Virus record (IMG/VR): IMGVR_UViG_3300009788_000280 | Span: 1-25,965 of that record | DNA from: a virus | DNA: 25,965 nucleotides | Strand: one strand, 5' to 3' | Part shown: piece after piece, positions 2,603 through 20,606 of the stretch | Position numbering within the stretch: the first letter of the stretch is position 1 | Layout of the letters: each line of letters begins with the position of its first letter | Notes under the pieces: model-generated | The model's input: the letters and a program-made list of their open reading frames with translations, nothing else | What the model was told of the DNA's origin: nothing | The model's database searches: none | Program-made: the position numbers and the translations under genes

Positions 2603-3430
2603 TTATGCTCCGTGTCCCACTAAAAGTCTTTGAGAGGCAATCCCTACCCCTGGCGCGTCAATGGCGCTTGGGGTGATAATTCCAGACGGATAACTTAATA
2701 CTTCCTCTGCCTCCCAGACAACAGAAGCTCCACCTGCACCAGTACCAGTATGGGCGTTGCCCGATAAATCAAAGACACTATCTCCGCTTGCGCTTGTCCC
2801 TGCGGCCCCATCATCCATAGGCCAGAACCCAACAAGATTAGCAGCCTGAACCTGTAAGGGTATCCGCTTTACTCTTGAATCACAAAGTAAGGCAATCTCG
2901 GCGGCTGTCATGACCGTGCCTTTCCATATTGCTAGTTCTGTAAGCGAGCCATTCCAGTTTCGGTCAAGACCAGAGGTCATGTCGGCAATGGTCATTGCTG
3001 ATGAAGCGTTAGGCAGAGAGGTAGGTATTGTCCCCGTGTAGGTGTTGGTGGTTTCGGAACCGTTAAGCCAGCACCGTATTTTCCCTGCATCTGTCCCTTG
3101 AGTGCCGTCATAGGCAAATAAAACATGGTTCCAGGTGTTAGCACTGAACAGACCACCAGAGTTATCAAAAGTTATAGAGTCTAGCCTGTCTGCCCCGGCT
3201 CCACCAACTGTCGCCGTTGCCCAAAACTCTAAATCACCCGCGTTGCTACCATCTGTCTGTATTGCCCAGGCCGCTTGGGATGCTTGTGCCCACTTAGAAC
3301 ATAGAGCCTTATTAGCTGTTAGCGCCGCTTGATTAAACCAAATAGATACCGCTAATTGGGTTGTATCATCAAAGTCGGTACTATCGGCAATATTTACTTG
3401 GTCAGCACTATCTACAAAAAGTATCGACAT
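2603..3430 (-). CDS. LamG/concanavalin A-like virion protein
   Basis: 275 aa, starting at 3430 immediately after the stop of the 90-aa gene. The sequence is a nearly complete LamG-type jelly roll: opening strands (VDSADQVNIADSTDFDD), AVSIWFNQ near residue 30, the typical WNHVLFAYDGTQGTDAGKI about residues 101-119, CWLNGSETT, then LTELAIWKGTVMTAAEIALL, the usual closing element of LamG folds. Such domains bind sugars and are common on phage tails and capsids. The C-terminal 70 residues are low-complexity Gly/Ala/Ser sequence. No signal peptide. Likely a particle surface protein; receptor binding is inference. Confidence 0.65.
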   Translation of the reverse strand: MSILFVDSADQVNIADSTDFDDTTQLAVSIWFNQAALTANKALCSKWAQASQAAWAIQTDGSNAGDLEFWATATVGGAGADRLDSITFDNSGGLFSANTWNHVLFAYDGTQGTDAGKIRCWLNGSETTNTYTGTIPTSLPNASSAMTIADMTSGLDRNWNGSLTELAIWKGTVMTAAEIALLCDSRVKRIPLQVQAANLVGFWPMDDGAAGTSASGDSVFDLSGNAHTGTGAGGASVVWEAEEVLSYPSGIITPSAIDAPGVGIASQRLLVGHGA

Positions 3431-6392: not shown

Positions 6393-6730
6393 TACTGAAT
6401 CCCAATGAAGACAAACAGAGAATCTGCGCCGGGGTCTGTGCCTAGCTTTATCTTCACAAATTGAAATGGTGCGAGGTCGGGGACGAATACAAAGAGGTTT
6501 TCCGTACCGCTGGCAATCTCCCAATTACCACTAAGGTCTGAGAGCAAAAGTGGCCGGTATGTTCCTCCTGATGTATTCGCTATGTGTATGTTGACTGTCC
6601 CGTTGTTTGTGAGTGCCGGGCATTCTATCCCTACGAGTTTTCCTGATTCTCTTAGGTTAACCTCGTTAGACAGGGTTGCCCCATTAGCAACAGTGGCCGT
6701 TCCTAGAATTTTCGGTGGTCGATTACTCAT
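6392..6730 (-). CDS. Small beta-rich virion protein (112 aa)
   Basis: The ATG at 6730 overlaps the end of the glycosyltransferase gene by 4 nt, and the TAA overlaps the next ATG. The product is a compact beta-prone sequence (ILGTATVANGATLSNEVNL, then LVGIECPAL, then LFVFVPDLAPFQFVKIKLG) that looks like small phage proteins seen beside fibre and decoration genes. No signal or membrane segment. A structural role fits; the exact place is unknown. Confidence 0.65.
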   Translation of the reverse strand: MSNRPPKILGTATVANGATLSNEVNLRESGKLVGIECPALTNNGTVNIHIANTSGGTYRPLLLSDLSGNWEIASGTENLFVFVPDLAPFQFVKIKLGTDPGADSLFVFIGIQ

Positions 6731-8109
6731 TTAACTTCCTTTCCTATTAAGCTTTCCTTGTCTTCTTCTCTCTCTCCTAATATGCTCGCTCTATGTGCTT
6801 CCATCTGTGCTTTATAGCCTCGGTAGGTATCTTCACCTACGATTATCTCTCCCAGGTGTCCGACCGGCGCTCCTGTATCCACGTACATTGGAATCTCTTT
6901 TTCTATCATGAGTATTGAAAACCATATGTCCTCACCAGTGTTTTCTTTGATGTAGAAATACGGTCTTTCTAATTTATCAAACACCGAAGTCTTGACCAGG
7001 AAACACGCCCCTCCGATTGCATCTACTTTAGTCAGTTCGTTTTTAGGCCAGTCATCACGGATACCGAACCTATAGCGCCCATCCTCAGTTGTTTCTTCAA
7101 GTCGATACACTAGAGGCAAATATGGGGCGGCTCTCTTAAAGGCAAGACACCCAACACACTCCTTGTCGTGCGCCACCAATCGCTCAAATGTATCGGGGGG
7201 CACAATCATGTCTGCATCAATAAAGAAGATGTAGTCACAACCGGCGCTCTGTGCTGTCTCTACCGCCTTGTTTCTAGCGTCATAGACAAACTGGTTGTAG
7301 ATGGTTAAAGGGAAGAACTCATATTCTTCCTCTGTAAACTGTAGTTTCATTAACCGCACCAACAGGTTCATGTAGTTGATGTGGTACTGCGCTTTTACAT
7401 CACCATAACTGGGTGTTGCGATCAGAACACGTTTTTTGCCTGACTTCGGGTGTCTCTTGTAAAACAGGTTCTTCCCGAACTGGTAATGCTTTACGAAGAA
7501 CGCTGTCTCACCCTTACAGCTCTCGCCTCCTGCATGAATCACTATAGAATCTGCGGCTTGACGTATCTTATAGCCCTTATTGACGGCTATCTGACACCAG
7601 TCTGTTTCCTCCCACATGAAGAAGTATTCTTCTCGGAACTCTCCGATTTCTTCCCAGGCTTTGCGATTTACACAAAAGACTGCACCCGACACCCAATTAA
7701 CTTCCATGTCCACAGTCAATGACAACGGCACATAGGTTGGGTTGCCCGCATACTCAGAGTTCTTGTCGTCGTAAAGCATGGGGCCAGTAGCCGCTATCTT
7801 AGCGTCACTTTTAAGGACTCCTACAAGCCCCTCAAGCCATCCGACTGTTACCCTACAGTCAGGGTTCACAAACACCGCATACGGGTTCTCTGTGGCTCTC
7901 ATGCCTATATTGACACCAGCCGCATACCCAAGGTTCTCATCGTTGTAGATTACTTGGGCTTTGTCGTCCAGTGTCTTGAGGTATGTTGTGTCCTTGGATG
8001 CGTTGTCTACTATCGTGAGTCTGTAGTCCTTGGTGTGCTTCTCAAGCGTTGGTATTAACTTCTTGAGTTCATCGTCTGAATTGTAATTAACCATAATAAT
8101 ATCAATCAT
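6727..8109 (-). CDS. Two-domain family 2 (GT-A) glycosyltransferase
   Basis: 460 aa, ATG at 8109 behind AGGAGG. Domain 1, about residues 1-215, is rhamnosyltransferase-like GT2: VNYNSDDELKKLI, IVDNASKD (34-40), NDENLGYAAGVN (56-67), NPDC (82-85, in the DXD place), then a SGAVFCVNR and MWEETDWC acceptor segment. Domain 2, about 226-440, is a second GT-A unit with ATPSYGD, IFFIDADM containing a clean D-A-D metal motif (298-300), GGACFLVK, GEDIWF and VGHLG. Both units appear intact. It lies in the middle of structural genes, so glycosylation of virion proteins is the simplest idea; modification of host surface sugars is the alternative. Donor and acceptor cannot be read from sequence. Confidence 0.85.
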   Translation of the reverse strand: MIDIIMVNYNSDDELKKLIPTLEKHTKDYRLTIVDNASKDTTYLKTLDDKAQVIYNDENLGYAAGVNIGMRATENPYAVFVNPDCRVTVGWLEGLVGVLKSDAKIAATGPMLYDDKNSEYAGNPTYVPLSLTVDMEVNWVSGAVFCVNRKAWEEIGEFREEYFFMWEETDWCQIAVNKGYKIRQAADSIVIHAGGESCKGETAFFVKHYQFGKNLFYKRHPKSGKKRVLIATPSYGDVKAQYHINYMNLLVRLMKLQFTEEEYEFFPLTIYNQFVYDARNKAVETAQSAGCDYIFFIDADMIVPPDTFERLVAHDKECVGCLAFKRAAPYLPLVYRLEETTEDGRYRFGIRDDWPKNELTKVDAIGGACFLVKTSVFDKLERPYFYIKENTGEDIWFSILMIEKEIPMYVDTGAPVGHLGEIIVGEDTYRGYKAQMEAHRASILGEREEDKESLIGKEVK

Positions 8110-9296: not shown

Positions 9297-9812
9297 TTAC
9301 GTCAACCCCCTAATAACCCCATTGTGGCGAGGATTAGTAGTGATGAACGCGCCATACCAGAGCAAGAATCCAATCTTGCCGTCCTGGGAAGTCGGTTCAT
9401 GCAGCGGCCATAAAGTAAAGCCCCTGTTGTCGGTCTTAAATGTCGGGTGGTTGAGGTAGTAATAATCAATGGTGTTCATATTGAGCATATACCAGAAACC
9501 AGCCGTACATCTTGGGTCTTTCAGAACTTCCGCTCCACGGTAGGTCAACTTATCAAAGCCGCCATCCGCTTTCGGGAAGCCACCTGAACTAAACTCAAAT
9601 CTCGCCTGTGGGTGAAGTGTCTGCTCGTAAGCTGTCCACATAGCCAGAGTTGTAAGGTGGAGGTCTACCGCTTTACCATTGTCCTCAATATCGTCAAGAC
9701 GAGTTGAGAGAATGGATACCGCAAACGCGCCTACAGAGGCAACGTAACTTCCCTTCCACCAAGTGTTGTTGGTACGGTTAATCCCACCGTACACATTGTC
9801 ATTTGTACCGTC
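9297..9812 (-). CDS. Major capsid protein, exon 2 (C-terminal 171 aa)
   Basis: Continuation of the capsid gene after the intron. The frame has no start codon of its own with a ribosome site: it is open back to a TAA at 9837-9839, inside the intron. From the inferred junction it reads DGTNDNVYGGINRTNNTWWKG, in parts the YGGINR-WW signature found in the middle of many HK97-type capsid proteins, then a helical P-domain (LSTRLDDIEDNGKAVDLHL), AMWTAYEQTL and a beta end with TNPRHNGVIRGL. With exon 1 the protein is 321 aa, a normal length. The next gene begins one base after its stop. Confidence 0.8.
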   Translation of the reverse strand, partial: DGTNDNVYGGINRTNNTWWKGSYVASVGAFAVSILSTRLDDIEDNGKAVDLHLTTLAMWTAYEQTLHPQARFEFSSGGFPKADGGFDKLTYRGAEVLKDPRCTAGFWYMLNMNTIDYYYLNHPTFKTDNRGFTLWPLHEPTSQDGKIGFLLWYGAFITTNPRHNGVIRGLT

Positions 9813-10833
9813 CGTACTGTTACCGTAGTAGGCTCTTTATCCTCTACTTCAACGTATTACTACGTTGTCCAGACTATATCATCCCTTTACGGGTAGCGCG
9901 CTCGTGGAGGTGTTACTGTCTTTACGTTTCTTGGCTCGGTATTTAGCCTCTCGTTGTTTCTTACAAGCCTTGCACTGACGATGTTTTTTCCCATAACGAT
10001 CTACTGTGTTATAGGTATTTTTCTCATCGAACGGGTGTCCTTTCTGGCAATGCGTCATACCAGCTTTCTTAGTAATCTCGTTCACCCTTAATCCATGCTT
10101 TAACTCGTATTTGAGCTGACATGAATTGTTGCAATACTTCTTGTCTCGGTTGCGATCTGAGGGCGTGCTTGTGAACTTACCACAATAAAGGCATTTCTGT
10201 CTTTCTCTTGATTTGTAGTTCCCACTGTTCTTCCCCTTGAAGTCCTTTGACCTAAACCACTTGGACTTACAAGCGGGACTACAGACAAACCCTTTCTTAG
10301 CTTTCTCCCATTCATAAAAATATCTATGTATGGTTTTCCCGCAACCCTTACAACGAACTGCTTTTTTCCTGAACCTTTCTATGTCGAAGACTCGACCTCT
10401 AGTCGTTACACCTTCCAAGTCGTTTCCAACCTGGCTTGGCTCGGTATTGTCCCCAGCACTACCTGGTAGGAGTTCCACCGAATTCACGCCATTGTCTATT
10501 AAGCCTAACAATTCTTCTGCGACTCGTCGTTCTTTGCCAAATAATGTTCTGTGACAGGCCACACATAGCGTAATTCCATTTCCAACATCTACCCTTAACT
10601 CAGGATAGTCACGAAATGGATATATGTGATGCGCCTCTATGTCCTGACCTTTATGACTACATATCTTACATGCCCAGCCATCTCGGGCATAAACATTGTG
10701 TCGCCACTCGATGTAAGCAGCGCTATGCTTAAATGCCTCGTCTTTTCTAGTCAGGCGTTTTGCCACAATAAAAACATATTACCAGCAATTTGCCTTAAGC
10801 CGCAAGTCGTAAGCCCAATAGGGACAACTTTTT
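9813..10833 (-). mobile_element. Group I intron in the major capsid gene (1,021 nt)
   Basis: The capsid frame stops at 10795 and resumes near 9812. Drawn on the minus strand: P1 pairs exon GGAT (10837-10834) with GTCC (10825-10822), leaving the required U.G at the 5' site. P element AAATTGCTGG at 10791-10782; P4 TTGC/GCAA; P6 GTAATA/TATTGT. P7 pairs GACTA (10752-10748) with TAGTC (9876-9872) inside the S-like GATATAGTC. P9 is a perfect 7-bp hairpin with a GTAA loop (9867-9850). P10 pairs GTT (10828-10826) with exon 2 GAC. A candidate P3 is GCTTAAG with TTTAAGC (10800-10794 and 10733-10727). The intron ends in G. Both exon ends are phase 0. Splice sites are inferred; subgroup not settled. Confidence 0.85.
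9879..10766 (-). CDS. HNH homing endonuclease in the intron
   Basis: 295 aa with a GTG start at 10766; there is no internal Met before the HNH fold. Residues about 18-75 are a classical HNH domain: YIEWRHNVYARDGW, C33-x2-C36, HH at 46-47, N63, C68-x2-CH. Three further Cys-rich units follow, like zinc fingers for DNA recognition: C-K-G-C with C-x3-C, C-L-Y-C with C-x3-C, and a final HCQKGHPFDEKNTY / CKACKKQ unit. The role expected from the family is cutting the intronless capsid gene so the intron is copied in. The start overlies P6/P4 and the TGA overlies P7, so coding and ribozyme sequence share bases. Start codon is the least certain part. Confidence 0.85.
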   Translation of the reverse strand: MAKRLTRKDEAFKHSAAYIEWRHNVYARDGWACKICSHKGQDIEAHHIYPFRDYPELRVDVGNGITLCVACHRTLFGKERRVAEELLGLIDNGVNSVELLPGSAGDNTEPSQVGNDLEGVTTRGRVFDIERFRKKAVRCKGCGKTIHRYFYEWEKAKKGFVCSPACKSKWFRSKDFKGKNSGNYKSRERQKCLYCGKFTSTPSDRNRDKKYCNNSCQLKYELKHGLRVNEITKKAGMTHCQKGHPFDEKNTYNTVDRYGKKHRQCKACKKQREAKYRAKKRKDSNTSTSALPVKG

Positions 10834-11283
10834 ATCCGCTACATTTACAAGTCCTTCGGGAACTTTGTTAGAGTCCCCTGAACCATCACTGTAAAGATAG
10901 CCACCGAACTTTTCTTCCAAGGACAATTTAGCGTCCTCCATGTCGAGGGCAACTAAGTCCTCGACCTTTTGAATCCCACCGTTCTTTGCAACCTCAATGT
11001 TAGACACCGCAATCGGCTCGTATACCTGCCGCCAATCAAACTGGGCTTGGGTACGAGTCGTCTGTAGGGCCGCAGAAAGCGTTTCAAGGCCAGCGTAACC
11101 GCCGCCCTGAGTACTGTTCTTGAACCTTACGATCTTATTGAGTGTCGTGCCGCCGTCTTCTCGTTTCGCTTTGTTCAAGAAACGATTAAGTCCTGGCGAG
11201 TTCTGTACGATTGCATCAGATACGTTGGGAAGAATATTTGACCGCGTTATTGCGGTCAGGCGACCGAAATCGGCTACCGCCAT
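10834..11283 (-). CDS. Major capsid protein, exon 1 (N-terminal 150 aa), HK97-type
   Basis: ATG at 11283 behind AGGAGG. The product has the usual HK97-fold order: short N-arm, a long beta/E-loop-like part (TLNKIVRFKNSTQGGGYAGLE, in parts, residues 47-67), VYEPIAVSNIEVAKN (87-101), a helix DLVALDMEDAKLSLEEKFG, then LYSDGSGDSNKVPEGLVNVAD (in parts) just before the junction. If unspliced, translation would run on 12 codons into the intron and stop at 10795, giving a 162-aa truncated product. It follows the scaffold gene, as expected. The spliced reading VAD-DGT...YGGINR is what this family shows, which supports the junction. Confidence 0.85.
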
Positions 11284-12118: not shown

Positions 12119-14152
12119 CTATTGTTGTGCTGGCGGCGATTCTGCACCTCCTTGCTGATCGCCGCCTTGTCCTTCAATCAATACTAAGTGTTCATTGATG
12201 TGGTCTATGATTATCTGCTGTATTTCAGGTGGTATCTTATTGGCTATTTCCATAAACATATCTTGGTGTGCTTCCATGTGGAGGTCGTGATTATCTAGTT
12301 CGCTCACAGGAACTTGCTGGCCGTCTAATAGTAAGATATTTTCCTGTTGTGGGTCGTGGCCTACTACTTCTTGTGGAACCTGTCCTGGTGCTTGTCCTGT
12401 CTGCCACAGAGCTAAGTTCTCAGCCATTTTTTCAGGGTTTTGGAAGTCTAAGGCTTCATAGCCGTCTACAGGGGCCATAAACCCTTGCTGCATCAACATT
12501 AGCGCCTCTTGTCTACGTGTCTCTTTGTTGACCGGCAAGGTCGAACCGGGCTTAACCCTAATATCCATACCATCGTCTATGTCTGTGCGTGAGAACTCAA
12601 AGAAGTCTCTTGCATCGTTAATACCGTGAATCTGGATAAGTTTAGGTTCGGTGTAGAACAACTTAAACATCTGAATCCACCACTTGAACACATCGACAGT
12701 AGCGGTTTCCAGTTGACGTACCAAGAGCCGCACAACCACCTGGTCTGCCTCTGCCTGTCTCGATACTTGGGTAGCTGTCTGTTTCCCTACGGCCTTAGCC
12801 CCACGGCTAACTTCGTGTTGGCCTGATATGTCATCAAAGATTCTCTGTGAATGAAACATATCTTCAATAACATACTGTGGTAGACCAACTCCACTAACTC
12901 GTTGAACCGAACCAGCATTTTGTGACATACCGGGGAAGTTAGATACCGCACCGGGCATGTTGACTATCTGGGCTTCTACGGTAGTTGAATCAATTTCTCT
13001 GCCGTCATACCATATCTGGGCATTAGCCATGTCGTTAGCGTTGTCGTCTATCTGCTGTTTGCGCTGGTTAATGGTCTGGATAACAGGCAGAAGTTGTTTC
13101 ATCACTCCGCTCGAATAGAGTTGCTTTCCATCATTAACAGACTTGAGGTGCACATAAGGTTTCATTGGTCTGTCAAAGAAGTTGAGAATAGGTTGATGGG
13201 CGTCTTGTATTTGTGCCTGTATTTCTTCTGTTACCTCAACTCCTTCGCTTTCTATAAGTTGTATCTGTTCGTCCATGAACTCTTCTAGTTGTTCCTCTGG
13301 CTCTCGCCACTCCCAAAGAGGGTTCTGTTCTTTCTTAATAATCTTTTTGCCACCACGGATAATCATTACATCGTCTGTCCAGACATGGTCTACCGTAATC
13401 GCGTTCTCTGGCATTGGCTCGTTCACAGTCCCAGTATTAACCTGAACATCTGTGTCTGTGATTTGTTCTGCGGCTACCTCTGGGGCGCCAAGGTCTTTGG
13501 TGTCAAAGAAGTTGTCTTTGAGGTCAAACTGTTTCGTTAGCCATGCCGCTGTACGAGTCTCCCGATGAATTAACCAATCCGCTTCGTCTAATGATTTCGC
13601 GTTAGGTTCGATAAATAGGTTGTGTGGCGGGACTATTACGCAGTCCACATCGTCTTCATGGAAGTTCCAGAACGGATGAAAGAACGTATCCGCGTACTTA
13701 GTCTGTTGAATAGCGGCCTCTGGAAGCTTCTCTTGCATCCCTTTTTCTTCCCACTTCGCACCAAGGGTCTTATCGACAAGTCTCGCTCTCTCTAGTTTAG
13801 CCTCATATTCCTCTTGGTCATTAGACGAACTAGGAATAGCCACAGGTTGAGGGCGCTGGTCGGTCATTAACCCTGCCTGATTACGGACAAACGGATACAC
13901 CAAATTCAACACAGTATCGCTCTTGTAGGCAGGGCTTTGGTCGTGGTCGCTACGAATCAACGACTCTGTATCCCCGGCAAACAACTTATCGGCCGTATCC
14001 CACTCTTTGCGCTTCTTGTTGTACCCATGTTTGCGGGCAAGATTGATAGCCGTGTCAATCTTTGTGTTTATCATTTCATCTGTATCAGTAACCTTAAAGT
14101 CCAGGTCAAGTAGCAGATTCTTTCTTTCGTCTTCTGTTAGATTAGTCGCCAA
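12119..14152 (-). CDS. Portal protein (P22-like)
   Basis: 677 aa, directly after the terminase and overlapping it by 16 nt. The start is a TTG at 14152 with AGGGG six bases upstream; no ATG fits as well. N-terminal segment with KRKEWDTADKLFAGD and the family-like stretch NLVYPFVRNQAGLMTDQRPQ (about residues 82-101), where the chain expected in P22-type portals recognises prior ring contacts. Later HRETRTAAWLTKQFD, a long acidic Gln-rich middle, and a helical C-terminal barrel-like end with many Gln and Glu. Twelve copies form the DNA entry ring at one capsid vertex in known systems. Length is normal for the P22-like group. Confidence 0.85.
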   Translation of the reverse strand: MATNLTEDERKNLLLDLDFKVTDTDEMINTKIDTAINLARKHGYNKKRKEWDTADKLFAGDTESLIRSDHDQSPAYKSDTVLNLVYPFVRNQAGLMTDQRPQPVAIPSSSNDQEEYEAKLERARLVDKTLGAKWEEKGMQEKLPEAAIQQTKYADTFFHPFWNFHEDDVDCVIVPPHNLFIEPNAKSLDEADWLIHRETRTAAWLTKQFDLKDNFFDTKDLGAPEVAAEQITDTDVQVNTGTVNEPMPENAITVDHVWTDDVMIIRGGKKIIKKEQNPLWEWREPEEQLEEFMDEQIQLIESEGVEVTEEIQAQIQDAHQPILNFFDRPMKPYVHLKSVNDGKQLYSSGVMKQLLPVIQTINQRKQQIDDNANDMANAQIWYDGREIDSTTVEAQIVNMPGAVSNFPGMSQNAGSVQRVSGVGLPQYVIEDMFHSQRIFDDISGQHEVSRGAKAVGKQTATQVSRQAEADQVVVRLLVRQLETATVDVFKWWIQMFKLFYTEPKLIQIHGINDARDFFEFSRTDIDDGMDIRVKPGSTLPVNKETRRQEALMLMQQGFMAPVDGYEALDFQNPEKMAENLALWQTGQAPGQVPQEVVGHDPQQENILLLDGQQVPVSELDNHDLHMEAHQDMFMEIANKIPPEIQQIIIDHINEHLVLIEGQGGDQQGGAESPPAQQ

Positions 14153-15807
14153 TCTTTACCCCTTTTGTTCTGACCACTAAGAACGTACTCTAAACTGGCC
14201 TCGTAAAACTTGCCCGTGGGCTTCTCTTGTTTGTCTGTTGTCACCGATATCGGGTCATGAACTAGTTTCGTTAATGCGACTTTGAAATAACACGTTGCGT
14301 GAGAGAAGTGGTCAGCTCCGTGGTTCTCCCATTTGTCACGCTCTACGTTTAATCTCTTGTCGTATATCTTCGTCTTGTAGAGAGCTTCCCAATGACGAAT
14401 GAACTTCTCTAGTCTCTCTGCTGTTGTGTTGTCGGTCTTGATGATGTTCATACGGCCACTGGTTAAATCATCTATTGCTTCGTCAATGATTCTTGTGCGG
14501 TCTACATAAACAACTCCGTACTTCTCTTTGGTCGCCCAGCGGATAGTCTCTCTATCTGCTTTGTCTATCTGATAGTCACAACCAAAAAGACGACCCCGAT
14601 ACTCTTTCATTAGTTTGCGTGTAGCAGTTGGGTCGCCTTTAAGGTCAATGACTGTTACTGGATTATGTTTGGCTATTAACGATTTAGCCTTAGCCTCGTC
14701 ACATACTAGCTGTAAAAATATTCCTTTAGCGTTCCCTAAGACCACATGCCACTCGGCTCCGGTATCAATCCCCATTGCCACGGGCAGGTGTGCGTACTCA
14801 TCGGGGGGAACGTCTATTCTTGCCCTCATCAACGTGTCTCTGTCTACTGTTGTGTCTGAACCTTTATATGGAAGTCCTAAGACAAAGTTATGGAAGTATG
14901 ATTGCCCTCCAACCGTGTGTGCTTTCTTCACAACGTATTCTGCGCTATGCCAGCTACACATCAGATGGTTCAACCAATACCCCGACATATTAGAGTTCTC
15001 ATATGGAACCCAGATACCGTCAGAGCGTTCGTGGTCGGCTATGCTTCGCTTACACTTCTTACAGATGTATTGGGCGTAAACCACCTTTTCTTTGTGGTCT
15101 AATTCGTATTCGATTGAATCAGGCCAAGACAAATATTGTTCATGATTACAGTGAGAGCACTTGATGAGCCAATGTCTTTGGTCTGACATTTCATACTGGG
15201 CGTGGACACCCATACCAGGCGCTGATAGGTTAGACAGCCACCACTGGCCTTGGTATTGGGAGTTGCCTAGCCGTGACTCATACTTTCTAAGAGTCTCCTG
15301 GTCAGCCTGGTCGCACTCATCGTATACGTTAAGGTCAGAGGAAATGGTAAGAGCTTCTGTTGCCCCTCTAGTCCCTCTGAAATAGATAAACCTGTTGCCA
15401 ATTCTCTTTAACCCGATAGAACGATTGGTTTGAACAAACTCGTCAAGGACTTTGTTTTCTTCCAGTATCCTGTTGAACTTAGAATTAACATAACCGGAAA
15501 CATCGTCATCACTCGGTAATGTATAGATGATATTCCACTTGCGATACTTGGCAGCAAAGATAGTCTTGATGCTATATATCTCTGTAAGGCCCATCTGAGC
15601 GCCTTTAGGTGATGCTTGGTTTGGGTTCCAGTCATTCGCCAGGTCTGCCAGAAACTTCCGGTGAACAAACTCATAAGGAACACCGTCAGGGGTAATTAGC
15701 CCTTGTTCTACTATCCAATCAGAAACTTTAGGTGGAGTCTTAACAGGTGCAAGTATTGTCCCGATGGACTTGAGAATATCGGGAGCTTTCTGTTCTTTCT
15801 TGACCAC
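14137..15807 (-). CDS. terL: Terminase large subunit (GpA-like)
   Basis: 556 aa, GTG start at 15807 lying against the TAA of the upstream gene, with AGGACGAGG just before it. ATPase domain: KGAQMGLTE at 68-76 is a lambda-type Walker A with Lys at its first place rather than in GK[ST]; Walker B plus catalytic Glu is LNVYDECD (159-166). Zinc-ribbon-like pairs C217-x2-C220 and C249-x2-C252 are typical of the GpA family. The nuclease domain has D348 (GIDTG), D388 (VIDLKGD) and a C-terminal HGADHFSHA acidic site. It pumps DNA into the procapsid through the portal and cuts concatemers. The portal gene begins inside its last codons. Confidence 0.9.
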   Translation of the reverse strand: MVKKEQKAPDILKSIGTILAPVKTPPKVSDWIVEQGLITPDGVPYEFVHRKFLADLANDWNPNQASPKGAQMGLTEIYSIKTIFAAKYRKWNIIYTLPSDDDVSGYVNSKFNRILEENKVLDEFVQTNRSIGLKRIGNRFIYFRGTRGATEALTISSDLNVYDECDQADQETLRKYESRLGNSQYQGQWWLSNLSAPGMGVHAQYEMSDQRHWLIKCSHCNHEQYLSWPDSIEYELDHKEKVVYAQYICKKCKRSIADHERSDGIWVPYENSNMSGYWLNHLMCSWHSAEYVVKKAHTVGGQSYFHNFVLGLPYKGSDTTVDRDTLMRARIDVPPDEYAHLPVAMGIDTGAEWHVVLGNAKGIFLQLVCDEAKAKSLIAKHNPVTVIDLKGDPTATRKLMKEYRGRLFGCDYQIDKADRETIRWATKEKYGVVYVDRTRIIDEAIDDLTSGRMNIIKTDNTTAERLEKFIRHWEALYKTKIYDKRLNVERDKWENHGADHFSHATCYFKVALTKLVHDPISVTTDKQEKPTGKFYEASLEYVLSGQNKRGKDWRLI

Positions 15808-15808
15808 A

Positions 15809-16225
15809 TTAGCCCTCGTCCTTTAGTGCCGCTGTTAAATCTTTGGGGTCAACCACCGCTCTTAGTGTTCCTCTGCCGTCTTCCATGATTATCATTAATT
15901 TGTCATGAGGCGCTTTGCGTAACTTTATCTTGGCTGTAATCCCATAAGCGGGAACTGTTACATCTTTCTTTACTGTAGGCTTCTCGGCTAAGCCAATCAT
16001 CATTGCCATTTCATCACGGTCTATAACAGCCTCTAATGTTCGTGAATTACGTTGAAGATACACGACCGCCTTGTATTCTCGTATCATCTCTTTGTTGAGT
16101 TGGCTTCTAATCTCTACTCTTACTCCGTTGTAAATAAGATTCTTTACTCTGGTTAAGACCGGCCCCACACGATTAACGTGGTTATCGTGTATCTTCTGGG
16201 CGAACATATCCTTTGATGCTCTCAT
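15809..16225 (-). CDS. Unknown protein upstream of terminase (138 aa)
   Basis: ATG at 16225 overlapping the end of the membrane-protein gene by 4 nt. Basic and mixed alpha/beta: a helical N-terminus with KIHDNHVNRVGPVLTRVKNL, a central beta part (VVYLQRNSRTLEAVIDRDE) and a C-terminal KDLTAAL. There is no helix-turn-helix clear enough to call a small terminase, although the position just before terL is where that gene often sits. I do not recognise the family. Confidence 0.65.
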   Translation of the reverse strand: MRASKDMFAQKIHDNHVNRVGPVLTRVKNLIYNGVRVEIRSQLNKEMIREYKAVVYLQRNSRTLEAVIDRDEMAMMIGLAEKPTVKKDVTVPAYGITAKIKLRKAPHDKLMIIMEDGRGTLRAVVDPKDLTAALKDEG

Positions 16226-16431
16226 TCTGGCTCCTGGTAGCTGAGTATCGGGTTTACTTCTGGTTCTTCTACGGTCTGTCTTTCCCCTTGTCGGCTCGTC
16301 ACTGTCATCGGTTGAGGTTTCTGTTTTCTCTTAGGCGCACGTATGTTCGCATCTATGGGCATTCTTCCTATGTAAAACCCTACCCCTACTGCCAATAACA
16401 TAAGTATTGATGGAACAATCATCTCTAACAT
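16222..16431 (-). CDS. Small single-pass membrane protein (69 aa)
   Basis: Start taken at the ATG at 16431, which overlaps the TAG of the preceding gene; a GTG at 16443 would add four residues. Residues about 4-22 (MIVPSILMLLAVGVGFYIG) form one strong transmembrane helix. After it come a basic stretch (APKRKQKP) and an acidic tail, giving a type I-like or N-in/C-out arrangement that cannot be fixed from sequence. It could be a membrane-bound accessory of the surface-modification genes upstream or a lysis-related protein. No holin feature is convincing. Confidence 0.6.
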   Translation of the reverse strand: MLEMIVPSILMLLAVGVGFYIGRMPIDANIRAPKRKQKPQPMTVTSRQGERQTVEEPEVNPILSYQEPE

Positions 16432-17033
16432 ACACTCACCCACTTAAACGGTACGGACATGCTCTCCTGCGCCCTCTGAGCGCTGCTACGGTAGTAGGCT
16501 ATGGCATGGGTCGGAGACTTGAAGTGAGAGGCGTAATACGGCTCTCCTGTGTGGTCTACCGATAACCCCTCTCCGTCTATAGCATCACAACAAAGTATCT
16601 TAATATCTTTTATCCCCATCAACTCTAATAACCTACAGGCGTTTGGGAGTGACGGCATCATTCGGTCTTTGAACCCTAAGTCATGTGTGTCGATAAACAT
16701 AAATCTGTCAGGATAATGGCTGTAACAGTTGTGTGTCTCTGGGTACGACAACAACAACGCTGCTTTTTCTGGTTCTGGATACCCCGGAGGGCCGCTCTCA
16801 CACCCACCACAAATGTCTTCTCCTGCTATCACTTCATCACAAGGGTTCTTCTGTAACGCATAGACTGTGTTCTCTAGTCCTAGAGCCTCTACGTGTTGAA
16901 CAGCCTGGTTTATCGCTATTATCGGCCCCTCTCCAAAGTGGTCTGCGCTTAGTTTGAGTAGTGATGGGCCTTTACCCACCACATATCCTGTTTCTCCTGC
17001 GTGTTTGTCTGTTAACACCTTAATGCTCTGCAC
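16425..17033 (-). CDS. MptE/DUF115-like protein of the surface-modification cassette
   Basis: The frame is open to 17063 (TTG), but a GTG at 17033 has AGGAGG four bases upstream and is the better start, giving 202 aa. GYVVGKGPSLLKL (about 16-28) and PIIAINQAVQHVEALG resemble the nucleotide-binding front of the MptE/DUF115 superfamily, a Rossmann-like group found in glycosylation and lipopolysaccharide loci and often in phages. Later ICGGCESG could bind metal, and ACRLLELMGIKDIKILCCDAIDGE follows the pattern of the second half. It sits downstream of the cytidylyltransferase and methyltransferases, which suggests a shared task. Reaction unknown. Confidence 0.55.
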   Translation of the reverse strand: MQSIKVLTDKHAGETGYVVGKGPSLLKLSADHFGEGPIIAINQAVQHVEALGLENTVYALQKNPCDEVIAGEDICGGCESGPPGYPEPEKAALLLSYPETHNCYSHYPDRFMFIDTHDLGFKDRMMPSLPNACRLLELMGIKDIKILCCDAIDGEGLSVDHTGEPYYASHFKSPTHAIAYYRSSAQRAQESMSVPFKWVSVC

Positions 17034-17087
17034 AAAGCCTCCTGATCTCTGTGGACTTAACAAATTTCTGTGGCCCGAAGAAGTTAG

Positions 17088-17474
17088 TTATTCGACAATA
17101 TTAGTGTCTTGGACTGTCAGTGTTGCGCTAGTCGAGTCTAAGCTGGTTCCTGTAAGTGTAATATCTGCATTGGTTGATGCCGTACTAGAACACCATACCT
17201 GGTAAGGCTGATACCACGGATACCTATCTCGGTATCGCTCGACAATCGGGAATATCGTTGTGGGCTCTTTGTTAGAAAGCTCCAACACCAACGCTCTGAG
17301 TAGTTCGACTTCTTTCTTAATGTCTTTTAACTCGTTGGTGTTAATGTTGCCCTCTCGGAAAAGTAAGCCAAACGCCTGCTTCTCCGTAATAATACTTTGT
17401 CCGACAAGGCGGGCGACCTCATCGGCTGTCGGAGGCTCTTTTAGTCTCCATATCAAATCATCCTTCTTCGTCAT
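17088..17474 (-). CDS. Coiled-coil protein of unknown function (128 aa)
   Basis: ATG at 17474 with GGAG five bases upstream is preferred over a GTG 30 bases earlier. The N-terminal domain (LKEPPTADEVARLV, then ITEKQAFGLLF) matches a short helical motif I have seen in many phage proteins next to a coiled coil, here residues about 49-70 (ELKDIKKEVELLRALVLELS). The C-terminal 45 residues change to beta-prone Thr/Ser sequence (TLTGTSLDSTSATLTVQD), like a structural add-on. Possibly a minor particle or adaptor protein. No catalytic motif. Confidence 0.6.
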   Translation of the reverse strand: MTKKDDLIWRLKEPPTADEVARLVGQSIITEKQAFGLLFREGNINTNELKDIKKEVELLRALVLELSNKEPTTIFPIVERYRDRYPWYQPYQVWCSSTASTNADITLTGTSLDSTSATLTVQDTNIVE

Positions 17475-17519
17475 CGTGACTCCGTTTCCACTACTCCGGG
17501 CCACAGAAAACTAAATTAA

Positions 17520-17984
17520 TTACGTAGTCGTTTTCGACAAATATGCTAGTGCCTTTTCGATTCTCTCTGCCGAGTCTCCCAACTGTCCAATAGCCCGGTT
17601 ACAGTCAGCACACAGCAGCCCTCTTATTTGGCCTGTCTCATGACAATGATCTACGGCTAGTCTTAGCTTTCTCCCCTGTCTTGTCCGAGTCTCTGGTTTT
17701 CTGTCGCAAATCGCACACTTGTAACCTTGCCTGGCAAAGAGAGCATCATATTCACTTATAGTCAGCCCATAATTTTTTTTAAGATTGTGTTTTCTCTTTG
17801 CCTCCGCAGCTTTTTCAGGGTGCTTTAGCCGCCATGATTTTCTGTATTCCGCCATGCAGGGCGCACACATGTGAGAAAGAGAGCCTCCTTTTTTTCTTTT
17901 CGTGCCAAGAAACGCATCCCGTGGCATGTATGTGTTACACCCTTTACATACTTTTCCGGGAATCAGTGCTCCTTTGGCTGGCAA
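17520..17984 (-). CDS. Endonuclease VII-type HNH nuclease
   Basis: The frame runs up to 18095, but its first part lies under the cytidylyltransferase gene. A TTG at 17984 with AGAGAGG eight bases upstream gives 154 aa and a 22-nt overlap. Two zinc units: C13-x2-C16 with C40-x2-C43, then C90-x2-C93 with C125-x2-C128. The nuclease core VDHCHETGQIRGLLCADCN (111-129) and following helix GDSAERIEKALAYL match the recombination endonuclease VII family, which resolves branched DNA in T4 and is also spread as free-standing nucleases in phages. It sits inside the sugar cassette, so it may be a mobile newcomer or a packaging aid. Start codon is uncertain. Confidence 0.8.
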   Translation of the reverse strand: MPAKGALIPGKVCKGCNTYMPRDAFLGTKRKKGGSLSHMCAPCMAEYRKSWRLKHPEKAAEAKRKHNLKKNYGLTISEYDALFARQGYKCAICDRKPETRTRQGRKLRLAVDHCHETGQIRGLLCADCNRAIGQLGDSAERIEKALAYLSKTTT

Positions 17985-18379
17985 TCTATAATCCTCTCTC
18001 TTATGAGGGTGCTGGATATATTTGGCGTGTATGGCAACAGCATGACGGTCTTCTGTTTTTCTAGCATCCAATCTTGTCCAGGGACATAATCCCAATCGTC
18101 TGCATGAATCAGAATGTCGGGATTGAAGTACTGTAGCTCTCCGTTCTTCGTTGGGTCTGTGTCTTTCTGGAAGAACGCCATATCAACGTACTTGATGGCC
18201 TTGACTATCTCTAGGCGATCTTTCTGTCTGATTATCGTTCTTGGTTTGTATCTCTCGGTAGCCTCATCGGTTAAGACCCCTACAACTAGAAAATCCCCCA
18301 AGGCTTTCGCTCTTTGGAGGATATTGAGGTGTCCGATGTGAAACGTATCCCACACCCCAGCTATGTAGACTTTCGACAC
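17963..18379 (-). CDS. TagD-like cytidylyltransferase (glycerol-3-phosphate type)
   Basis: 138 aa from a GTG at 18379 with GAGGAG eight bases upstream; a TTG at 18400 is less likely. Single nucleotidyltransferase domain: first strand KVYIAGVWDTFHIGHLNIL with HIGH at 14-17, LVVGVLTDE (31-39), RQKDRLEIVKAIKYVD (51-66), DILIHADDWDY (88-98) and the signature PNISSTLIRE (119-128). The whole length and order fit glycerol-3-phosphate cytidylyltransferase (TagD), which makes CDP-glycerol from CTP for teichoic acids. A related sugar- or ribitol-phosphate transferase is possible. The gene overlaps the methyltransferase before it by 19 nt, and a glycerophosphotransferase-like enzyme lies one gene further up. 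Confidence 0.8.
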   Translation of the reverse strand: MSKVYIAGVWDTFHIGHLNILQRAKALGDFLVVGVLTDEATERYKPRTIIRQKDRLEIVKAIKYVDMAFFQKDTDPTKNGELQYFNPDILIHADDWDYVPGQDWMLEKQKTVMLLPYTPNISSTLIRERIIDCQPKEH

Positions 18380-18909
18380 AAGAAACGCTCCTCTACCCAA
18401 TCGGGAGTATTCCCAAACTTTCCTATGTCGTGGCTGATTATCGTAAACCCTGCCTCTTTAAACAGTCTCTCCCACATCTTTGTCGGCATAATCGTAAAGT
18501 GTTCTTCTATCTCACAAAAGGCATCTGTTGTGTGGGTTGGGAGCGCTACATAGAGATAACCATAGCTGTTTAGTGCATCGTTGATGAGCGCCAACACATA
18601 AAGCGGAAAGGGTGAGTGTTCCAGTACGTGCATGGCTAATACTGCGTCAAACCCCATACCGTCTTGTACTATCCCCTGGTGCATGTCGTGGGGTAAGTTA
18701 ATCGTTACCAGGTCGTAGTCTTTGTAAAGATCGTGGTAGAACTCCTCTCCACCTAAGTCTAATATCCGACCTCTAGTGACATATTCTGATATTTGTTCGT
18801 ATCCGTATCTCTTAGCTTCTACCTTCTGCGGCAGCGGTACGGCATTATCCCAGCGGGTTTGTTTGATGACACAATCTTTAATCAGCTTTTCCACCAAAGA
18901 GTGATTCAT
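18361..18909 (-). CDS. Class I SAM-dependent methyltransferase-like protein (182 aa)
   Basis: ATG at 18909 preceded by GAGGTGAT and overlapping the previous gene by 32 nt. Rossmann pattern: motif I as RGRILDLGGEEFY (about 47-59), acidic strand-2 end in YDLVTINLP, motif IV-like FDAVLAMHVLEHSPFP (about 87-102), then NSYGYLYVALPT and a late helix-strand GFTIISHD. This is the Methyltransf_11/23 layout used for small molecules, sugars and lipids. Motif I has GG where GCG is usual, so activity is likely but not assured. Coupled to the cytidylyltransferase downstream. Confidence 0.75.
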   Translation of the reverse strand: MNHSLVEKLIKDCVIKQTRWDNAVPLPQKVEAKRYGYEQISEYVTRGRILDLGGEEFYHDLYKDYDLVTINLPHDMHQGIVQDGMGFDAVLAMHVLEHSPFPLYVLALINDALNSYGYLYVALPTHTTDAFCEIEEHFTIMPTKMWERLFKEAGFTIISHDIGKFGNTPDWVEERFLCRKST

Positions 18910-19819
18910 ATATCACCTCACTGGCGTTGCCGATGTTTTCTACTATGGTATCCAGCCAGTCTGGGCAGCTTGCATATCCCTTGTCATACCTCATGTAATC
19001 TTGTATGGAGTGCTTGACCCCATCTATTTCTACTGCTCTTCGTGCGTATTTGTATGTGTAGAAAAACTCGGGTAGTTTCGGCAAATCAAATGACGGAATG
19101 CTCTTTTTCTTTAAGTACCACTCTTCATGTTCAGGGTTTGCCACCTGTATCACATATTTACCTAAAGCCATGGCCTCTAGTACAGTAGAACCGAAATCAG
19201 CAATTACTATGTCACTATCTAAAATGGCTTGGGTCACATCGCCAGACGAATACCTTGGATATAATTGTGGTGCGTCTGAGTGTGACCGGCTCCGTTCATG
19301 GAGGTGTACCTTAACACCCTCTATCTCATAGATTGAATCTTTCAATACCGATATAGCAGAGAGTTCCGGGTTCCAGGTGGGTGCAAATAATACTCTTGGC
19401 TTCTCTCTTAGTGGCGGTATCTTCTTGATTCCATCGAACTTGGTCAACCCCGCTACAATCAGTTTGTCTTCACTAACCCCCATGTTCGTCAATAAGTCCT
19501 TATAGTATTCAGATGGACATACAATAAAGCCTGGGTAGTTCAGGTATGTATCTTTACGGCTCGTTGACCATGATTGACCTTTTGAGGCTAGACCGTGGGT
19601 TAGGTTGACGTATGTGCCTTTGGCGGGACAGTTCGATTCTTCATCGGTTACAAATACGTAGTCATAATCTAAATCCCCACTACTCCCCATATTGGTTGAA
19701 TCCCAACGCCCTAATTCCCAATGTCGGTCGTATTTCTCGTTTAGTGCTTTCATATAATTAAACATCGGTGTCAGATACGGCCAACTCAGAGGCCAATCGG
19801 CGTAGAATAGTATTCTCAT
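18878..19819 (-). CDS. GT-B glycerophosphotransferase-like enzyme (TagB/TagF group)
   Basis: 313 aa, ATG at 19819 overlapping the upstream stop. N-terminal Rossmann half with RILFYADWPLSWPYLTPMF, LTHGLASKG (73-81) in the place of the WHG motif, and CPSEYYKDLL. C-terminal half with RVLFAPTWNP (142-151, like the APT[FW]R motif), a histidine-rich VHLHERSRSH (171-180), and DSDIVIADFGSTVLEAMALG (201-220), matching the LItDYSSvifD region of CDP-glycerol glycerophosphotransferases. Shorter than TagF because it has no extra N-terminal domain. With the TagD-like enzyme it could move glycerol phosphate to an acceptor. Other GT-B functions remain possible. No membrane anchor is seen. Confidence 0.7.
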   Translation of the reverse strand: MRILFYADWPLSWPYLTPMFNYMKALNEKYDRHWELGRWDSTNMGSSGDLDYDYVFVTDEESNCPAKGTYVNLTHGLASKGQSWSTSRKDTYLNYPGFIVCPSEYYKDLLTNMGVSEDKLIVAGLTKFDGIKKIPPLREKPRVLFAPTWNPELSAISVLKDSIYEIEGVKVHLHERSRSHSDAPQLYPRYSSGDVTQAILDSDIVIADFGSTVLEAMALGKYVIQVANPEHEEWYLKKKSIPSFDLPKLPEFFYTYKYARRAVEIDGVKHSIQDYMRYDKGYASCPDWLDTIVENIGNASEVIYESLFGGKAD

Positions 19820-20142
19820 ACATCGCGCTCTGTTATATCTGTAGCCCCTCTAAATAAATCCTTTGCGTTCGAGAATTTACGAACACCCTCTGGCATTTCA
19901 ACTGGGCCTGACAACATTTCCTCCATATGTTTGTCCAGCAACTCCCTGGAGGGTATCGGGTCGTCTTCGGGTGTTGTTATTCGATAATATATTTGGTTGA
20001 TTGGCGGTACTTCTTTGCCATCATCTTCAATCAACTCAGAAGACCAAAATGAAACGATACTGGTACGTTTTGGTTCATCGACTATGTATTTACCAAGGCT
20101 ATACTTTTTTATTGAAAAGATGTCGTTCAGGCCGTACTTCAT
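19816..20142 (-). CDS. Unknown protein between the methyltransferase and GT-B genes (108 aa)
   Basis: ATG at 20142 and stop both overlap neighbours by about 4 nt, so it belongs to the cassette operon. The N-terminal half is beta-prone (DIFSIKKYSLGKYIVDEP, RTSIVSFWSS), and the C-terminal half is polar with one helix (RELLDKHMEEMLS) followed by an Arg/Lys-rich end. No catalytic motif, signal or membrane segment. It could be a partner of one of the enzymes beside it. Confidence 0.6.
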   Translation of the reverse strand: MKYGLNDIFSIKKYSLGKYIVDEPKRTSIVSFWSSELIEDDGKEVPPINQIYYRITTPEDDPIPSRELLDKHMEEMLSGPVEMPEGVRKFSNAKDLFRGATDITERDV

Positions 20143-20606
20143 GGGGCTATCTTCGTCATAACATGATTAAGGGCTTGTATGGCCCCTGTTGGTCGTCCTG
20201 CCACCATAGCTCTTAGTGTGGTCTGTTCCGTACACTTCCAAGGTTTAGGTTGATACATCTCATACCACGGAAACTCTGGGTCGTAGTAATACCAGGTTAG
20301 TTCGTTCCATGACGTACAGTGGGTTGGGTCTTGTATATCGCCATGACAACCGGCGTAAGGGACGTTGAGTTGCATTACCCCGCCTGGCTTCATGATGCGC
20401 CATATCTCATTAAAGAAATCCATCTGTAGCCACGGTTTAATGTGTTCGGCTATATGACTACAGTGTACTTGTTCGCACTCTTCATCCTTGATCGGCCACG
20501 GGAACACCTCCAAATCATGGACAATATCAACACCATCACGGTCTTGTATATCTATTCCTATATATCCATCTTCTTTATTGAATCCACAGCCTACGTCTAA
20601 CTTCAT
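20139..20606 (-). CDS. Class I SAM-dependent methyltransferase (155 aa)
   Basis: ATG at 20606, overlapping the twin-arginine gene by 4 nt. Starts straight into motif I (KLDVGCGFNKEDGYIGIDI, residues 2-20, with a full GCG), motif II-like DIVHDLE, motif IV region HCSHIAEHIKPWLQ (about 49-62), post-motif IMKPGGVMQLNVPY and a His/Cys-containing CHGDIQDPTHC segment. It is a compact Methyltransf_11-type enzyme with no DNA-recognition domain, so a small-molecule or sugar substrate is more likely than DNA. First enzyme of the cassette in transcription order. Confidence 0.8.
   Translation of the reverse strand: MKLDVGCGFNKEDGYIGIDIQDRDGVDIVHDLEVFPWPIKDEECEQVHCSHIAEHIKPWLQMDFFNEIWRIMKPGGVMQLNVPYAGCHGDIQDPTHCTSWNELTWYYYDPEFPWYEMYQPKPWKCTEQTTLRAMVAGRPTGAIQALNHVMTKIAP

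Follow-up and report, generated by a model that had tools for sequence, protein, structure and literature searches.

Why should a virus carry a cytidylyltransferase, a glycosyltransferase-like enzyme and two methyltransferases directly before its packaging genes? The question was raised by IMG/VR virus record IMGVR_UViG_3300009788_000280, a fragment of 25,965 bases that was analysed over its whole length and is referred to here as the window. The gene cassette at positions 16425-20606 probably uses cytidine triphosphate (CTP) to activate a small phosphorylated compound that is then transferred to a surface, the likeliest being a glycan of the phage's own virion. The logic of activation followed by phosphotransfer is well supported by sequence comparison, and this mechanism is most strongly argued by the coupling of the same cytidylyltransferase to two unrelated types of transferase.

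A preliminary description had read the locus as a cassette for activation and transfer of the cytidine diphosphate (CDP)-glycerol type. All the genes that it named are present on the minus strand, with Pfam methyltransferase and PF01467 domains. The features are as follows (L001 and L006 are further virus contigs carrying orthologues; aa, amino acids).

20139..20606, minus strand: MT1, S-adenosylmethionine-dependent methyltransferase of 155 aa, first gene of the cassette (PF08241, 23.3 bits against a cut-off of 21.2; phrog_6636, E 4e-7; orthologues in L001 and L006)
19816..20142, minus strand: 108-aa protein overlapping MT1 and the GT-B gene, 52% identical to that of L006 and without match in family searches
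18878..19819, minus strand: GT-B transferase of 313 aa, placed by hhalign and motifs as a divergent relative of PF04464 (Glyphos_transf)
18361..18909, minus strand: MT2, S-adenosylmethionine-dependent methyltransferase of 182 aa (PF13489, 32.6 bits against a cut-off of 27; orthologues in L001 and L006)
17963..18400, minus strand: CTP_transf_like nucleotidyltransferase of 145 aa (PF01467, E 5e-20)
17520..18095, minus strand: endonuclease VII / HNH gene, outside the cassette function (PF02945, E 1e-23)
17088..17504, minus strand: 138-aa open reading frame (ORF) of the window copy only, without counterpart in L001 or L006 and without significant match in family searches
16425..17063, minus strand: MptE/DUF115-like protein (PF01973 below cut-off; hhalign; orthologues)
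14137..16443, minus strand: packaging genes downstream, namely a 73-aa gene at the probable position of the small terminase subunit, without family match, then the large subunit (phrog_675, E 5e-89)
6727..8109, minus strand: two-domain GT2 glycosyltransferase among the structural genes (PF00535, E 9e-26, two stretches)

The order is thus MT1, 108-aa gene, GT-B enzyme, MT2, cytidylyltransferase and MptE-like protein, with terminase after them. MT2 is the sole gene between the GT-B enzyme and the cytidylyltransferase and overlaps both, so that these lie one gene apart and not two, as had been stated. The genes had also been described as all coupled and leading into terminase; terminase does follow, but the HNH gene and the 138-aa ORF interrupt the series after the cytidylyltransferase gene and before the MptE-like one. 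The true start of the cytidylyltransferase is likely GTG 18379 (138 aa), and that of the MptE-like protein likely GTG 17033, after AGGAGG (202 aa).

Orthologues were found on three further virus contigs, L001, L006 and L007, the last two being counted as one lineage since their identities to the window do not differ. The order MT1, GT-B, MT2, cytidylyltransferase and MptE-like protein is repeated in L001 and in L006/L007, just upstream of terminase. The 108-aa gene is also found in L006/L007 and is absent from L001. The endonuclease VII-type HNH gene and the 138-aa ORF are insertions particular to the window copy, being absent from L001 and L006. Amino acid identities between the window and the two other lineages were 48-83% for the five enzyme-type genes (83% and 48% for the MptE-like protein), and the ratio of non-synonymous to synonymous polymorphism (pN/pS), from nucleotide comparison, was 0.15-0.44 across the five, with synonymous change high to saturated. 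All five genes are therefore under purifying selection, and the recurrence of the gene order before terminase, together with these ratios, excludes chance.

The cytidylyltransferase matched PF01467 with 72.6 bits (cut-off 21) and shows the HIGH (HxGH) motif at residues 21-24 as well as HADDW and YTPNISST. It has the fold family, HxGH and DDW in common with TagD, the label under which it had been described. That label could not be retained: the match to the TagD equivalog TIGR01518 (72.4 bits, E 3e-20) falls below the cut-off of 165.4, the signature RTEGISTT is replaced by YTPNISST (YTPGVSTT in L001, YTKSISTT in L006), and in a tree of 42 sequences the enzyme stands outside the clade of Bacillus subtilis and Staphylococcus aureus TagD, with clade support of 100/98. 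By score, signature and tree it is classified as a PF01467 enzyme but not as TagD. HldE-type ADP-heptose activation was also rejected as the primary reading, since the match to the HldE C-terminal domain TIGR02199 (74.8 bits) misses its cut-off of 181.5 and no heptose genes were seen. The same three differences from TagD speak against the original proposal of a true CDP-glycerol cassette, with a CTP:glycerol-3-phosphate cytidylyltransferase and a glycerophosphotransferase, which is judged unlikely even though the E-value for TIGR01518, the common DDW motif and the kinship of the GT-B enzyme with PF04464 agree with it. An Fe-ADH_2 gene adjoining the Butyricimonas relative of the cytidylyltransferase also speaks for glycerol, as this Pfam family includes glycerol-1-phosphate dehydrogenases.

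Among solved structures, the family profile matched best the phosphonate cytidylyltransferase domain of Fom1 (PDB 5x3d; 126 bits), then human ECT and then TagD (85 bits). The Fom1 domain cytidylylates hydroxyethylphosphonate (PMC6697681) and has similar HGDDW and YTPGISST-type motifs. The activated compound, called X below, might accordingly be a phosphonate, either 2-hydroxyethylphosphonate or 2-aminoethylphosphonate, leading to a phosphonoglycan decoration, and PF01467 and LicD-like genes are known from phosphonate clusters (PMC6697681). In Fom1, however, the CTP domain is fused to a phosphoenolpyruvate (PEP) mutase, and no PEP mutase match was obtained among the Pfam-scanned window proteins. 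Nor was this enzyme found in five bacterial genomes bearing the gene pair treated below (four Saccharibacteria and one Sedimentisphaerales; assemblies of unstated completeness), which weakens the phosphonate reading; it is regarded as improbable.

PF01467 domains in other arrangements were also noticed. A 795-aa protein of Lachnospiraceae (L059:6024-8411) combines a weak methyltransferase match (E 0.004) with a C-terminal PF01467 domain and is a possible methyltransferase-cytidylyltransferase fusion, and in two viral sequences (L004:7983-8726 and L005) the PF01467 domain is fused to a SnoaL-like domain.

The GT-B enzyme is placed as a divergent Glyphos_transf relative, with a presumed fold, on the basis of profile-profile comparison, a ranking of pooled GT-B proteins and motifs in register; the glycerophosphotransferase pattern previously noticed in it is thus upheld. 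HMMER searches against Pfam gave sub-threshold GT-B matches only. With hhalign, the three phage proteins matched the PF04464 proteins of eight bacterial genomes with E 3e-14 and the subset of these adjoining bacterial CTP_transf genes with E 4e-15, compared with 2e-6 over 44 columns for GT4, 0.003 for Epimerase_2 and 0.69 for a reversed-sequence control. When a hidden Markov model (HMM) of the phage proteins was run on a pooled GT-B set, the top nine proteins were all PF04464, above every GT4 and epimerase protein. Searching eight whole genomes with this model yielded two matches at E ≤ 0.01: a PF04464 protein in the vicinity of the Butyricimonas cytidylyltransferase, and a gene adjoining a Saccharibacteria cytidylyltransferase. 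The motif residues of the window enzyme are H75-G76, A146-P147-T148-W149, H172, D203, D208, S211 and the C-terminal IGNASE; each of the three phage copies aligns in register with PF04464 (TagB/TagF and the short bacterial members beside CTP_transf genes) at the HG, APT(W), second-His and D..SS positions, and the C-terminal DGKAS-like motif of that family also lines up. With the short bacterial members, the enzyme further has in common the gene pairing with a PF01467 enzyme. Membership of GT4 and of Epimerase_2 was rejected, as both gave sub-threshold Pfam matches and weaker hhalign similarity than PF04464. No relative was obtained among phage records or in a pattern scan of bacterial genomes, and a PDB sequence search with the GT-B profile returned chance matches only.

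Bacterial relatives were chosen by similarity to the cytidylyltransferase alone, and in 7 of 8 of their genomes a PF04464 or GT-B-like gene lies close to the cytidylyltransferase gene. In L057, L042/L043, L045 (two) and L048, PF04464 is the immediate neighbour of the cytidylyltransferase gene or is separated from it by a single gene; the neighbour scores close to threshold in L047 and weakly in L053, and G008:C64 holds a further pair. Several of these genomes contain only one or two PF04464 genes in total.

When the cassette phages are set aside, the viral relatives of the cytidylyltransferase are mostly GT2-LicD-CTP_transf-GT2 fusions, some 850-1,100 aa long (e.g. L021:6621-9206 and L029:6534-9206). 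The uncultured viruses that encode them (L015-L036) hold its nearest relatives outside the cassette phages, with 45-49% identity. LicD is a phosphotransferase family that uses CDP-activated donors, and the fusions therefore resemble the cassette in coupling a cytidylyltransferase to a phosphotransferase. They differ from it in having LicD in place of the PF04464-type transferase, in forming one polypeptide and in being located in the tail module rather than before terminase: a tail terminator gene follows the fusion gene in all five viruses checked (L017, L018, L021, L028 and L029) and, where tested, the genes on either side include that for a neck protein (upstream) and that for the tape measure (downstream). 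None of the phage records covers 80% of the one fusion protein searched. Bacterial operons, viral LicD fusions and profile-profile homology thus bear out the coupling of cytidylyl activation to a GT-B enzyme of the glycerophosphotransferase pattern that had been suggested from the window.

In the proposed mechanism, the PF01467 enzyme would make CDP-X from a small phosphate or phosphonate compound, the Glyphos_transf-like GT-B enzyme would use CDP-X as donor and place phospho-X on a glycan acceptor in phosphodiester linkage, and one or both methyltransferases would cap the added group or the sugar underneath. The O-methyl phosphoramidate pathway of Campylobacter, with its cytidylyltransferase and methyltransferases, may offer an analogy. 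By position, the virion is the likeliest acceptor: the cassette lies among late genes, and the GT2 glycosyltransferase is found further along the structural block. Taken as a whole, with the virion as acceptor, this mechanism is considered reasonably probable.

The GT2 glycosyltransferase is a possible partner of the cassette. It is weakly similar to GT2 proteins and domains of the LicD-fusion viruses, and at this weak similarity it is not claimed to be the same gene. The MptE-like protein bears its earlier name on weak similarity: hhalign gave a short match (E 1e-5 over 50 residues, N-terminal motif only), and the PF01973 match (E 0.2, 11.9 bits) misses the gathering score of 34.6. It had no match among phage records, and its profile found chance matches only in the PDB.

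The same chemistry could instead be directed at the host wall or capsule, altering receptors and so blocking superinfection. The bacterial relatives of the cytidylyltransferase do lie in loci with polysaccharide glycosyltransferases, and a block of superinfection has been put forward as the task of phage LicD in Flandersviridae (PMC8008677). Virion decoration is favoured over host-wall change by the late structural position of both designs, the cassette before terminase and the fusion enzyme inside the tail module, and within the cassette no gene was noticed for a flippase, a lipid-linked glycosyltransferase or a membrane anchor; a host-surface target is accordingly rated as rather unlikely. 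A location by packaging genes would also suit a cassette acting on phage DNA. Methyltransferases and a GT-B-like enzyme are present, and virus glycosyltransferases can hypermodify DNA according to the passage citing this work (Pyle et al. 2024, cited in PMC12619734). Since the fusion relatives belong to tail modules and the scanned window proteins included no recognisable thymidylate synthase or DNA-hydroxymethylpyrimidine kinase, DNA hypermodification is regarded as very improbable.

Several findings weigh against phosphodiester decoration of the virion by these enzymes. The GT-B enzyme, a single unit of 313 aa, departs from PF04464 in giving no match to the HMM of that family even at E 10 (gathering score 22.1 bits), and hhalign aligns it only weakly with canonical TagF-type polymerases (E 0.005). 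AlphaFold models from three-sequence alignments reached a predicted local distance difference test score of 36 for this enzyme and 31 for the MptE-like protein. The orthologues span only three lineages, all uncultured. The late-gene position fits a change of the host surface late in infection too, and neither an acceptor nor a lipid-linked intermediate was identified in the analysis.

Phage tagD/GCT auxiliary genes have been reported from RCA phage CRP-6, cyanophages, Lake Baikal and Arctic viral operational taxonomic units (PMC6918029, PMC9146016, PMC7678222, PMC11515562). Like the window gene they belong to PF01467, and they are annotated as glycerol-3-phosphate cytidylyltransferase; in the cited passages they appear as single genes whose function is unclear (PMC6918029, PMC9146016, PMC7678222), with a cryoprotective role guessed in PMC11515562 and host-wall roles also guessed among these reports. 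Unlike in the window cassette, no paired phosphotransferase is described in those passages. LicD in phages is also published, for Flandersviridae (PMC8008677), whereas for the pairing of a phage cytidylyltransferase with a glycerophosphotransferase (Glyphos_transf), and for the fusion, nothing was found in the open-licence papers searched. Mycobacteriophages (Che8, Corndog and Myrna) are an established case of virion glycosylation, in which phage-encoded transferases decorate the capsid and tail tube (Freeman et al. 2023, cited in PMC12363180); in contrast with the proposal for the cassette, the citing passage mentions no CTP-activated phosphate group.

In the remainder of the window, the minus-strand genes downstream of the cassette include those for terminase, portal, major capsid protein (MCP) and structural proteins, and an SU10-type adaptor is close to the left end. 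A search of the phage collection gave no near-identical phage. The structural genes include a concanavalin A-like lectin/glucanase domain protein (2603-3430, minus strand). The MCP gene (9297-11283, minus strand) is divided precisely at the junction of codons 150 and 151, the exons ending at 10834 and 9812 with 1,021 nt between them; L008 has the gene unbroken, and in L006 it is broken at this position or no more than a few codons from it. Weak Rfam matches to parts of a group I intron, arranged in the correct order, together with a 5' exon whose last base is T and an insert whose last base is G, suggest that the insert is a group I intron. An HNH ORF inside it (9879-10766, minus strand) matches HNH over two stretches, residues 4-84 and 228-286; a weak intron-core match at 10484-10398 overlaps this ORF.

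Tentatively, several unrelated phage groups may carry on their virions a phosphodiester decoration resembling teichoic acid or a phosphonoglycan and built from CDP-X, either through separate genes, with a PF04464-type transferase before terminase, or through one GT2-LicD-cytidylyltransferase-GT2 fusion in the tail module. The pairing of a tagD-like gene with a phosphotransferase in two genetic designs, both in late structural blocks, gives these genes a testable function, decoration with a CDP-activated phosphate group. If the group is on the virion, phage glycosylation would be extended from sugars to phosphodiester groups.

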